This document shows, one piece after another, positions 40,743 through 56,130 of a stretch of 64,000 bases of DNA. The stretch is from Myxosarcina sp. GI1 (GTDB taxonomy: Bacteria > Cyanobacteriota > Cyanobacteriia > Cyanobacteriales > Xenococcaceae). The notes under the pieces are model-generated. The model was not told the DNA's origin, made no database searches, and saw only the letters and a program-made list of their open reading frames with translations. Location of the stretch: positions 1 through 64,000 of the forward strand of contig NZ_JRFE01000050.1 in NCBI RefSeq assembly GCF_000756305.1, given 5' to 3'. The position numbers and the translations under genes are program-made. Every line of letters begins with the position of its first letter. The stretch's first letter is position 1.

Positions 40743-43700
40743 TCAAACTGTTACTCCTTCTAATTCATCTTCGGTAGACTGATACAACTCCCTCAACTTC
40801 TCTAACTTTTCTTCATCGGCATTCCACAAACCCCGTCCGTGTGCTTCAAGCGATCGCGCTACAATATTTCTAAACGCTTCAGGATTGGCATCTCGTAATT
40901 TTTGCGCCATCTCAGCATCTAAAGCATAGGTATCTACTGCTTGGTCGTATACCCAATTATCTTTAAAATTAGCCGTACCACCCCAACCAATTAAAGCCGT
41001 CATCCGTTGCGAGATTTCATACGCGCCACCGCTGCCTTGGTCTGACATGGCTTTTGCCCATTTAGGATTGAGTAACTTAGTACGGTACTCCATGCGTAAC
41101 AGGTCTTTTAACTTGCGGGGAGTAGTATCTTTAGAAAAGCTTTCCACAAAAGAAGCCTCTACTTGCTTGCCGCTTTGTTTTTCCGCCGCCAGCTTTAAAC
41201 CGCCAGTATTGCCATAGTATTCTTGGATGTCGGTTAAGCCATATTCTACTGAGTCAATTTCTTGGACGATGCGATCGCTGGTTTCTAATAACTGAGATAA
41301 TATTTCTGGTCTGGCTTGTCCTTTGTCTTTGCGTCCGTAGCTAAAGACGTTGCGGTTTTTCCAGGTGTCTGCCAGTTCGTCACCAGATTCCCAATTGCTA
41401 TCTACTACCTTATCGTTTACCAAAGAACCAAAATCACCAGCAGGGTTAGAAAACATTCTCGCACTAGCATTATCTACCCCTTTCGCCTGTAAAGCTAAAT
41501 AGTGTTTGCGAATATAGTTATCAGCTTCGGATTCTTCGGCTTCTGCTGCCCGTTGAAACAAGTCGTCTAACAGTTCGATAATATTGACAAAGGTATCGCG
41601 GAAGATACCAGACAGGTTAGCTAAAACATCAATACGAGGATGTTCCAATTCTTCTACAGATATCAACTCGTAACGCACAATTCTTCCCGTACCTTCTTTT
41701 ACGGGTTCTGCACCTACAAGTTCTAATAGAATACCTAAAGACTCACCTTTAGTTTTAATCGAATCTAAACCCCACAGCATTACCGCTACAGTTTCGGGAT
41801 AGTTTCCTGTTTCTTCCAGGTTTTGGGCAATAATCTTTTCAGCTATTTCCTTACCGCGTTCGTAAGCCGCAGGGGAAGGCATCCGATAAGGATCTAAAGC
41901 GTGTATGTTTCTACCCGTAGGTAATACGCCACTGCCGTCTCTAAGCAAGTCTCCACCAGGCGCGGGGGGTATATATTCTCCATTTAAACCCCGTAGCAAA
42001 TTGGTTAACTCATCGGTATTTTGTGCCAACAAATCTCTAATTTTTATTGCTTCTTCATTGGGCGAAAGCCTTTCGCTCCTACTTTGTGTATCTGTATCAT
42101 GACGCGAGGTAATATCGCCAATTTCATTTTGCGATAATTCTTTATCGAAATAAGCCTCTAAATATGACTTTAACTGTTCTTCATTGGGTGCATTTCCTAA
42201 AACGTGCAAGCCAGAAGAAAATAAACGCTGTTCTAATACCTGCAAGTATTCGTAAACTTGGAGAAAATATTTATTAATTATCGTCTTACTAAACAATTTC
42301 GCATTCTCGACAGTAAAACTAATTCCTTGTTTCGATCCTTCTTCAAACTTGCAGTCCTTTTCTATACCAGCATCGACAATTTTTTGACAGATAGCTTCTC
42401 GTAAAGCCTGATTTTTTTCAGGATCTTCACGATATTCAGCAATTAATTCTCTTAGTGCCATCAATTCTTTATACAAACCCGCACGTCCGTAGGGCGGTAC
42501 GTTGTGAGAAACTAAGACACCATAACCCCGACGTTTTGCCAAAATTGATTCTGAAGGATTATTAGCAGCATAGATATATAAGTTAGGTAAATTGCCTAAC
42601 AAAATATCAGACCAAGAATAGCCAGTATTACCCAGAGGCGAACCAGGAAGCCATTCTACAGTACCGTGCATTCCAAAGTGAACTATTGCGTCGGCTTGAT
42701 ATTCGTGTTGCAGCCACTTGTAAAAAGCTGCATACTGCGGATGGGGGGTTAAATCTTTCTCAAACATCAACCGCATAGGATCGCCTGCAATTCCTAATGG
42801 TGGTTGTACTCCTATCCACACATTACCCAATTGAATACCGCCAATTTGAAAATCATCGCCGTAGGTTTTAATTCCCGTACCCGTTAGTGACTGCCATTGC
42901 CGTTCGATTTTGGTAGTTTGTAGATAACCCAACCATTTTTCTAAAGTGCGAACGTTAACTGAGGTTATGTCGCTTTTGTTATCAAAAGAAGCCATAGCTT
43001 CATCCGCTTCTTTTACTTTTTGAATTATCTCCTCGCCATCTTCGGGTAGTTCTCCGACTTCATAACCCTGTGTTTTTAAAGCCTGAAGAAATTTTAATAA
43101 ACTCTGTGGCACATTTAATAATGCGGCAGTACCAGTTGCGCCATAACCAGGAGGGAAGCCATATAAAATAACGGCAATTTTTCTTTCTGAAGTGGGTTTG
43201 TGTCGCAACTCAATCCAGTTTTTAACTCTGCTGGTGAGGCGTTGTAAACGTTCGGGTACGAGATAGATATCCTCTCCTACTAAACCACCTAAAGGTACGG
43301 TATCGATCGCGCCATCTAATTCGGGTAGAGAATATAAAACTACACTCTGCAAACCGCCTATTCCCTGTCGCGTCCAAGAGTAGATATCTTGAATTAATAA
43401 AGGTGCAGCGACGATATAAGGAACGTTCTTAGCCGTTAGAATGCGCTTAGCTACTTCTACCTGTCTCCCTGCTTCCATCGAACCCGCAGGACCTCCAACT
43501 AATGGAAAACCAATGGTAGAAACAACTGCATCGACTTTTACCGCATCATCTTTTAGAGATAAAATTTCTTTATTACCCTGCTGTCTTTGTTCTTGTTCGT
43601 AGTCAGTAGTCAGCCAGTCTCGAACCGCAACATGACCTTCTACGCCATTAATAAATATTGGCAGGGGAATCAAACCTGCGGTTTCAAAATGTTTAATTAA

Positions 43701-44489
43701 TTGCGGAATATATGGTTGTTTGGTAATTACGTGTTTGCGATACAGCAGAATACCAACAACGGGTTTCTGTAGGGGCTGTTCGCGAACAGCCCCTACTACA
43801 GGAATCGTCCTGACATTGTTTTGATACCAATTTGAATAATTTTGTGGCGACGTAAAATAACCCTGATATTTGGGATGCAATAAACCCATGTTGGGGGTTT
43901 CTATCGCTGGTGGAATATCACCAACGGTCAAACCCAAATATTTCTCCGCCAGCGTCCAACACATAGCCGCGACGTTTTCAGTTCCCCCCGCATTCCAGTA
44001 ACCGTAAATAATCAACCAGTTACGCAAGTCTCGGACTTTTTTGCCAGGAACGTATTTTAATAATTTGGGTCCCGTTTTTAGAAAACTTAAATAGCCAGCC
44101 AGCTTATCTTCTTCCCTGCTGTTGCCAAACTTACTTAGGATAAATTTAACGGGTTTGGGCATTCCTTTTGGTTTATCGCCGATCGCAAATTTACCCAACT
44201 TTGTCAGACTAATTAATTCTATCGCCGACTCAAAAACTAGTCTGATAGGAATATCTTTAACTCTTTCTTTTAACCAAACAACTTGGTCGTAGTCGAAGAG
44301 CAAACTGGCAAAAAACACATCGGCAGACTGTAGCGCAGTTTCTACTTTATCGGAAGAAGTAGCAATGTCGCGATCGCTGAAAAAGATTACCTCCAACCCT
44401 TCACATCGCACCGTCGCCATCTCCGCCGCCTGACGATAGAGGTTGCCATTAAAAGATTCAAATCCCGCGATCGCCACAATCCGTTTCAT
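40743..44489 (-). CDS. chlH: Mg-chelatase subunit H family (ChlH/BchH-like)
   Basis: 1248 residues, the porphyrin-binding CobN/BchH-type subunit that inserts Mg into protoporphyrin IX with the D and I subunits. Motifs: GTENVAAMCWTLAEKY, GILLYRKHVITKQPYI, HFGMHGTVEWLPGSPLG, NNPSESILAKRRGYG, and the C-terminal GWGGTANFKDNWVYDQ. The N-terminal part (GFESFNGNLYRQAAEMA) is unlike the usual long cyanobacterial ChlH, and the protein is about 80 residues shorter, so it may be a paralogue or a BchH-type copy. It contains an in-frame 28-nt palindrome (43770-43797). Confidence 0.85.
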   Translation of the reverse strand: MKRIVAIAGFESFNGNLYRQAAEMATVRCEGLEVIFFSDRDIATSSDKVETALQSADVFFASLLFDYDQVVWLKERVKDIPIRLVFESAIELISLTKLGKFAIGDKPKGMPKPVKFILSKFGNSREEDKLAGYLSFLKTGPKLLKYVPGKKVRDLRNWLIIYGYWNAGGTENVAAMCWTLAEKYLGLTVGDIPPAIETPNMGLLHPKYQGYFTSPQNYSNWYQNNVRTIPVVGAVREQPLQKPVVGILLYRKHVITKQPYIPQLIKHFETAGLIPLPIFINGVEGHVAVRDWLTTDYEQEQRQQGNKEILSLKDDAVKVDAVVSTIGFPLVGGPAGSMEAGRQVEVAKRILTAKNVPYIVAAPLLIQDIYSWTRQGIGGLQSVVLYSLPELDGAIDTVPLGGLVGEDIYLVPERLQRLTSRVKNWIELRHKPTSERKIAVILYGFPPGYGATGTAALLNVPQSLLKFLQALKTQGYEVGELPEDGEEIIQKVKEADEAMASFDNKSDITSVNVRTLEKWLGYLQTTKIERQWQSLTGTGIKTYGDDFQIGGIQLGNVWIGVQPPLGIAGDPMRLMFEKDLTPHPQYAAFYKWLQHEYQADAIVHFGMHGTVEWLPGSPLGNTGYSWSDILLGNLPNLYIYAANNPSESILAKRRGYGVLVSHNVPPYGRAGLYKELMALRELIAEYREDPEKNQALREAICQKIVDAGIEKDCKFEEGSKQGISFTVENAKLFSKTIINKYFLQVYEYLQVLEQRLFSSGLHVLGNAPNEEQLKSYLEAYFDKELSQNEIGDITSRHDTDTQSRSERLSPNEEAIKIRDLLAQNTDELTNLLRGLNGEYIPPAPGGDLLRDGSGVLPTGRNIHALDPYRMPSPAAYERGKEIAEKIIAQNLEETGNYPETVAVMLWGLDSIKTKGESLGILLELVGAEPVKEGTGRIVRYELISVEELEHPRIDVLANLSGIFRDTFVNIIELLDDLFQRAAEAEESEADNYIRKHYLALQAKGVDNASARMFSNPAGDFGSLVNDKVVDSNWESGDELADTWKNRNVFSYGRKDKGQARPEILSQLLETSDRIVQEIDSVEYGLTDIQEYYGNTGGLKLAAEKQSGKQVEASFVESFSKDTTPRKLKDLLRMEYRTKLLNPKWAKAMSDQGSGGAYEISQRMTALIGWGGTANFKDNWVYDQAVDTYALDAEMAQKLRDANPEAFRNIVARSLEAHGRGLWNADEEKLEKLRELYQSTEDELEGVTV
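43770..43797. repeat. perfect 28-nt palindrome in ChlH-type gene
   Basis: GTAGGGGCTGTTCGCGAACAGCCCCTAC is translated as part of a linker (about VVGAVREQPLQ) without breaking the frame. Its layout matches common cyanobacterial dispersed palindromes of the GTAGGGGCG...CGCCCCTAC type. Confidence 0.8.
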
Positions 44490-45193: not shown

Positions 45194-45511
45194 ATGAAAT
45201 ATAAAGGATATGAAGCCGTAATTGAATATGATGAAGTCGATCGCCTGTTTTTTGGCGGAGTAATTAATACTAGAAATGTTATTTCTTTTGATGGTAAAAC
45301 AGTAGATGAATTATAACCGTCTTTTGAAGCAGTAATTGAGGAATATCTAGAAGATTGCAAGCGAGAAGAAAAAGAACCCGATCGAGCATTTTCTGGTCAA
45401 TTTAATCTGCGAAATTCTCCTGAGTTACATCGGAAAATTAGTATTGAAGCAAAAAAACAAAATTTCAGTCTCAATAGTTTTGTCGAACAAGCATTAAATA
45501 GAACAGTGTGA
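45194..45511 (+). pseudogene. HicB-family antitoxin with in-frame stop
   Basis: 106 codons in one frame: KYKGYEAVIEYDEVDRLFFG and the HicB fold, then TAA at 45314-45316 (after DEL), continuing FEAVIEEYLEDCKREEKEP and an RHH-type C-terminus (FNLRNSPELHRKIS, then NFSLNSFVEQALN). The stop divides antitoxin and DNA-binding halves. No hicA gene is visible on either side. Probably non-functional. Confidence 0.75.
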
Positions 45512-55975: not shown

Positions 55976-56130
55976 TTGACGGACGTTTGCTGAGGTTTCC
56001 TCAGCAAACGTCCGTCACAAGCGCAGCCTCTTTCAGAGGCAAGTCGCGACGCAGGAGCGACGCTTTGGGCGATTCCGCCCTGCGAGGAAACCTCCTCGAC
56101 TCTAATGACTCAGGAACGCGCGAGTTGAAC
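55976..56130. repeat. composite palindromic repeat
   Basis: The 18-bp stem GACGGACGTTTGCTGAGG with its exact complement and a TTT loop shares the core CTGAGGTTTCCTCAG with the insert at 1065-1109. A second part (GTCGCGACGCAGGAGCGACG, GGGCGATTCCGCCC) follows. It lies upstream of tgt and may affect 5' RNA structure. Confidence 0.75.

Follow-up and report, generated by a model that had tools for sequence, protein, structure and literature searches.

Small repeats of several classes in a length-variable linker of a BchH/CobN-type chelatase gene of cyanobacteria

Described palindromic repeats and the chelatase linker

Rickettsia palindromic elements are inserted in frame in protein genes and translated; they are CGTC-tagged or longer and belong to another phylum. 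The SDR repeats of Nostoc, reportedly described by Elhai et al. in 2008, are said to be tiny mobile repeats of 21-27 nt and of other sequence that show compensatory changes, nesting and insertion in heptamer repeats. The GTAG REP superfamily comprises palindromes of 20-40 bp with an unpaired GTAG at one end, which are present in high copy number, associated with RAYT transposases that are proposed to move them, and predominantly extragenic (PMC3733652, Di Nocera et al. 2013). The part of that account cited here includes the cyanobacterial members GTAG-12, -15 and -16 and a GTAG REP found at about the same orthologous site in recB of two Xanthomonas species, and it names the Rickettsia elements among palindromes in protein genes (PMC3733652). 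Perfect inverted repeats also occur in functional protein genes of Nematomorpha mitochondria, where the arms encode conserved regions (PMC6649704). Small variable segments of bacterial genomes, which are short differences at one locus among relatives, consist in part of palindromic units or repeats (PMC2884548).

The element analysed here is a 28-bp palindrome within a chelatase gene of Myxosarcina sp. GI1, located in a stretch of 64,000 nucleotides (the window). By description it can be likened to the Rickettsia elements, since it lies in frame within a protein gene. With GTAG REPs it shares a length of 20-40 bp, a terminal GTAG, dispersal in cyanobacteria and an intragenic position of some copies (PMC3733652). 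However, the GTAG pairs here with CTAC, and the palindrome is paired throughout, including its centre, in contrast to the unpaired GTAG and the loop of GTAG REPs (PMC3733652). As the definition of the superfamily includes an unpaired GTAG, the element is not filed as one of its members; we file it as similar in its workings to a GTAG REP or an SDR, with membership not claimed.

The setting also differs. Unlike the coding palindromes of Nematomorpha, the window element fills a variable linker (PMC6649704). The cited part of the GTAG REP account does not mention any one linker that several repeat classes have refilled (PMC3733652), and the segments of PMC2884548 come from a genome-wide strain comparison in other bacteria, with no cyanobacterial enzyme linker in the part cited. 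Among the literature matches listed, no account was found of one enzyme linker so often taking unlike repeat families, though one may exist. Translated in-frame intragenic palindromes are already known; what is new is the repeated refilling of one enzyme linker, and the site is more interesting than the single palindrome.

The palindrome, its host gene and its dispersed family

The host gene (positions 40743-44489, minus strand) is an ORF of 1248 amino acids with no internal stop, and the description of the gene as otherwise intact in the first-pass annotation was correct. Its product scores 1573 bits with the NCBIfam model TIGR02025 of the BchH magnesium chelatase H subunit (cut-off 829) and matches PF02514 and PF11965, but remains below the stricter magnesium chelatase models NF009140 (998 vs 1300 bits) and NF009942 (826 vs 1166 bits) and the CobN models TIGR02257 (537 vs 822 bits) and NF004646 (565 vs 1468 bits). 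A paralogue with 35% identity to the window protein is encoded on contig C24 of the same genome, and a 702-amino-acid part of it alone reaches 1209 bits with NF009140, exceeding the score of the whole window protein. On the basis of this better fit we call the paralogue ChlH, while the window gene is regarded as a putative BchH/CobN-type chelatase large subunit with the metal left unassigned.

The palindrome, GTAGGGGCTGTTCGCGAACAGCCCCTAC, occupies positions 43769-43796 on the minus strand with 14 of 14 pairs; it had been recognised as a perfect 28-nt palindrome before, although placed one base off (43770-43797). It is the single match in the window even with up to three mismatches. The sequence begins at codon 232 (GTA GGG GCT GTT CGC GAA CAG CCC CTA C) and encodes VGAVREQPL (V232-L240) and the first base of Q241, so that the translation proposed earlier, about VVGAVREQPLQ, was right and includes one flanking residue per side. 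Five codons (QKPVV) separate it from the GILLYRKH motif (residues 246-253). Judging from the sequence, the palindrome is presumably translated, in one of its two stop-free frames; the peptide region that it encodes, VVGAVREQPLQKPVVGILLYR, contains a trypsin site at R236. Since 28 nt is not a multiple of three, the footprint differs from that of a clean in-frame insertion.

Orthologue alignments and repeat classes delimit a length-variable linker, the docking site of the repeats, at residues 223-245 (43755-43823, minus strand). In a weak structure model predicted for residues 1-480 (mean pLDDT 58, with 198 of the 480 residues under 50) the linker is a coil between a helix (215-225) and a strand (244-250); low pLDDT at residues 229-239 is poor evidence for disorder. 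Sequence comparison distinguishes an 18-nt segment, GTCAGGACGATTCCTGTA (43797-43814, minus strand), which adjoins the palindrome on its 5' side in the gene and is possibly the remnant of an older palindrome with an internal deletion. At the equivalent place, the orthologue L013 has an 18-nt segment of another sequence. A second length-variable loop, near residue 805, contains a decayed GTAG-type palindrome, GTAGGAGCGAAAGGCTTTCGCCC (42060-42082, minus strand), read as RSERLSP, and the same loop harbours GTAG palindromes in L006, L017, L018 and L020.

The exact 28-mer is present in one copy in the 7.07 Mb of its own genome and in three of the 388 genomes sampled from the order, namely its own, G018 and G014. 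In G018, which has the same DNA as Waterburya agarophytonicola KI4, it lies in the orthologous linker. The chelatase genes of these two genomes are identical at only 47.9% of their fourfold sites, and slow neutral descent would therefore hardly be expected to leave the 28-mer identical. The copy in G014 lies in an mfd-like ORF (L122, 1131-3026, plus strand), which scores 264 bits as a partial ORF with the transcription-repair coupling factor model (cut-off 800), and is read there in a different frame as RGCSRTAPT.

The looser pattern GTAGRGRC-N10-14-GYCYCTAC has ten copies in the own genome, against one for the reversed control, and the looser GTAG...CTAC pattern was matched in 24 of the 27 family genomes; one other species has 138 copies of a sub-pattern. 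The proposal that the palindrome is a dispersed repeat is upheld by this looser family and by the identical 28-mer in the mfd-like gene of G014, but not for the exact sequence within its own genome, where it is single-copy. Six of the ten own copies are covered by stop-to-stop ORFs of at least 90 amino acids, and five of the ten, few copies as these are for comparison with the predominantly extragenic GTAG REPs, are counted as intragenic: those in the window gene, in two RAYT-like ORFs, in an NRPS-like ORF and in a Usp ORF, in the tail that follows its domain. The sixth ORF-covered copy (L119) is excluded, the family matches starting downstream of it. The NRPS-like ORF (L120, 1-3027, plus strand, contig C29) carries its palindrome in frame, read as VGAIRESSLL, between the adenylation core and the C-terminal part. 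The RAYT-like ORFs (L003, 1202-1903, and L118, 1260-1619, both minus strand, on contigs C14 and C13) score 64 and 54 bits with NF047646, below its cut-off of 80. We take the palindromes within them to sit after an HxH motif. On contig C14, another palindrome lies at a distance of 379 bp.

Two other features of the window may be mentioned. An ORF at 45194-45511 (plus strand), which presumably resembles a HicB-type antitoxin, has an in-frame TAA after codon 40 and is otherwise open to 105 codons. Between two ORFs, a perfect 19-nt inverted repeat with a 3-nt loop (55977-56017) is perhaps a terminator.

Occupants of the linker and their turnover

Linkers were obtained from 192 of the 198 candidate loci (L078, L100, L174, L184, L196 and L202 were unparsed) and reduce to 137 distinct sequences. 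Classified by hand-written patterns composed after viewing the sequences, with three manual changes (L217 and L020 to palindrome, L207 to composite), they comprise 40 with a GTAG-type palindrome, some decayed or nested, 30 with a tandem repeat, mostly of a 7-base unit, 11 with a composite GC-rich element (CTTGTGGGGCAGGCG...), 8 with a C-run/G-run palindrome, 2 others and 46 unrecognised. Orthologue alignments differ in length and sequence before GILLYRKH, in agreement with the variable linker assumed in the first-pass annotation, and the residues track the repeat that is present rather than being conserved whatever the palindrome. The palindrome is not a lone accident either, as orthologues of other genera have different palindromes in the same frame or quite different repeats.

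Among relatives from the same taxonomic family, palindromes start at linker position 12 in, for example, L006 (GTAGAGACGCGAAATTTCGCGTCTCTAC), L011 (GTAGGGGCGCATCACGATGCGCCCCTAC) and, slightly decayed, L018 (GTAGAGACAAGATATATCGCGTCTCTAC). The palindromes of orthologues in other genera mostly begin 18 nt further 5' than that of the window gene, which starts at position 30, as does that of L013, in the same frame as those at position 12. Many Nostoc-like relatives have a start at position 13, in another frame with a CRDAINRVST-like reading. The starts of the 27 linker 28-mers, taken modulo 3, are 0 in 11 and 1 in 16; the remaining frame, which contains TAG, is used by none of the 27. Eight of the 11 frame-0 palindromes are at position 12 and 13 of the 16 frame-1 palindromes at position 13. 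That many genera share one offset suggests that, besides re-insertion, the site itself has been inherited. Elements that look nested, as judged by eye, are found in L037, L045, L051 and L217, and in L168 a GAGCGGAGTCGAAG-type repeat lies within a heptamer tandem array, resembling the insertion of SDR-type repeats inside heptamers that is said to occur in Nostoc.

The distribution of palindromes along the gene was determined in 96 orthologues totalling 352,371 bases, of which the linker accounts for 1.8%. Of the perfect arms of at least 12 nt, 19 lie in the linker and five outside it, all five in two other length-variable loops; the binomial probability of this enrichment is 3e-29, a rough guide only, as it ignores common descent. 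The contrast is weaker for arms of at least 10 nt (22 in the linker vs 11 outside, two of these at residue 29) and of at least 9 nt (27 vs 20). Palindromic 28-mers number 52, with 24 in the linker, six near residue 503, four near 800 and 18 elsewhere. The linker ones occur in 24 of the 96 genes, two with GTCT or GTAC ends instead of GTAG. Those elsewhere lack the GTAGRGRC arm, and seven of the 18 represent one conserved stretch at residue 638; a near-palindrome at residue 200 of L081, with 11 of 14 pairs, a GTAG start and a CTAC end, is spelled by conserved VETPNMGLL. We take the 18 near-palindromes elsewhere for codon chance. In the conserved core of the 96 genes no such palindromes were found, bar near-palindromes spelled by ordinary codons.

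ChlH segments served as a control, taken from 20 of the 27 family genomes; each is about 2.1 kb long and reaches approximately to the middle of the gene from its start (42,141 bases in all; three of the 20 were checked by family models). They contain no arms of at least 10 nt and two of 9 nt, while the same counts are 10 and 18 in a 20-gene Pleurocapsales-type set of the window gene. The 28-mer scan of the ChlH segments returned two AT-rich, non-GTAG near-palindromes.

On the tree, the linker class changes at least 50 times (27 times without the unrecognised linkers), against an average of 74 for shuffled labels, which indicates that inheritance is present and yet turnover is fast. Flank identity is at least 95% in 13 pairs, of which three differ in class and one has identical linkers; for at least 90% identity (98 pairs) the respective numbers are 49, with both classes recognised in 30, and two. 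A palindrome in one member faces a composite element in the other in L048/L082 (97.7% flank identity) and in L177/L200 (95.1%). In L018/L020 (93.7%) the linker palindromes are unlike, while the palindrome near residue 805 is common to both with one difference in 28 and may be used as an internal control for their relatedness. No insertion between strains within one species was seen, the comparison being of species representatives.

Origin of the linker repeats

The occupant of the linker, the family to which it belongs, its restriction to variable loops and the turnover among close relatives are probably explained by a tolerant chelatase loop that has been repeatedly colonised by small mobile repeats in cyanobacteria. 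The loop of the BchH/CobN-type chelatase would tolerate in-frame additions, and small dispersed repeats would colonise it, overwrite one another and nest there again and again; in the own genome the occupant is a 28-bp perfect GTAG...CTAC palindrome of an order-wide family. Arrival may depend on the repeat's own mobility, perhaps provided in trans by RAYT-like HUH transposases, and the palindrome would presumably bring no benefit to the enzyme. RAYT-driven movement is plausible. Y1_Tnp matches were found in all 27 family genomes, and the numbers of Y1 transposases and palindromes are not significantly correlated across them (Spearman 0.32, p 0.10); G020, with 18 Y1 matches, lacks palindromes, and G007, with 19 palindromes, has a single Y1 match, which is marginal. 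A simple link to the number of Y1 transposases was rejected on this basis.

The palindromes of the linker vary in a concerted manner. Across a set of 21 distinct 28-mers from the linker, two-sided changes affect 11 of the 14 pairs, with a covariation score of 0.577 vs 0.160 for shuffled sequences and at most 0.159 for slid controls; as 20 of the 21 were selected for at least 11 of 14 pairs (one has 10), this selection inflates the percentage of paired bases. Dispersed copies were counted in two of three genomes, with the third (138 copies) outside the count: the ten central bases that the pattern leaves unspecified show perfect self-complementarity in 26 of 33 copies in one pool and in 14 of 18 in the other. 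Since a hairpin loop does not need a self-complementary centre, the symmetry points to a cause at the DNA level. Template switching can yield compensatory two-sided changes, according to the part of the report cited (PMC8794818). Template-switch correction and movement limited to symmetric copies may be regarded as equal alternatives for the upkeep of symmetry under repeated colonisation.

The two-sided changes, and the reported capacity of template switching to produce them, also suit a somewhat unlikely alternative, in which one ancient insertion per clade was inherited and template switching copied changes to the other arm with no movement. It would account for the recurrence of offsets at positions 12 and 13, but not so readily for the window palindrome at position 30, nor for the exchange of the whole element in L018/L020 and L048/L082. 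In L052/L061 (95.1%) all six central palindrome bases differ, together with only four other linker positions, and each core recurs elsewhere in its own genome, which again argues against change without movement. The linker core of L079, GTTGTATACAAC, is the sole such copy in its genome, and relatives have GTTGCATGCAAC, as would be expected of in-place change; however, this core type is found in 35 of the 388 genomes and could be an immigrant. It was therefore rejected as proof of in-place change, and it does not decide between template switching and symmetric-only movement.

Alternatively, linker alleles might be swapped between strains by homologous recombination via the conserved flanks, with the repeats as passengers. 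The two pairs with 95-98% identical flanks and unlike repeat classes are in keeping with such swapping, which leaves unexplained the origin of the unlike classes, the nested-looking elements and the two frames at one place; we consider it unlikely. More doubtful still is the view of the linker as a true exchange site, in which dedicated machinery, RAYT-like or acting by hairpin-directed template exchange, would swap palindromes in place, so that the self-complementary core is exchanged between arms and flanks that stay as they are.

A functional RNA element or terminator within the message is highly improbable. The stem is strong by prediction (-34.3 kcal/mol for the 91 nt around the palindrome, z = -4.6, with none of 200 shuffles equally stable) and covaries, but the element occupies several offsets and two frames, is missing from many relatives and is not universal, and its self-complementarity mostly extends across the centre, something an RNA loop can do without. 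A known RNA family was rejected, as the Rfam search gave no match up to E = 1, and so was an intrinsic terminator at the palindrome, the one terminator-like site found being another hairpin, a weak one of the opposite strand. An origin by chance from codon usage has virtually no probability and was rejected: conserved codons do spell near-palindromes with 11 of 14 pairs, as at residue 638 (seven) and at residue 200 of L081, but GTAGGGGCTGTTCGCGAACAGCCCCTAC arose in none of 100 shuffles of the window, perfect arms of at least 12 nt are present in 20 of the 137 linkers vs none in 20 rounds of single-base shuffling, and dispersed copies exist.

Under repeated colonisation, the loop would record how, in more than 100 species, small repeats of several families arrived many times, and loop sequences in such proteins can derive from repeats. 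The linker would offer a ready trap in which to study the movement and in-place exchange of elements of about 30 bp, and it also suits the study of compensatory palindrome changes that arise without RNA function; a coding hairpin may covary strongly without being a functional RNA. If the linker were a true exchange site after all, cyanobacteria would rewrite a stretch of enzyme sequence by means of palindrome cassettes.
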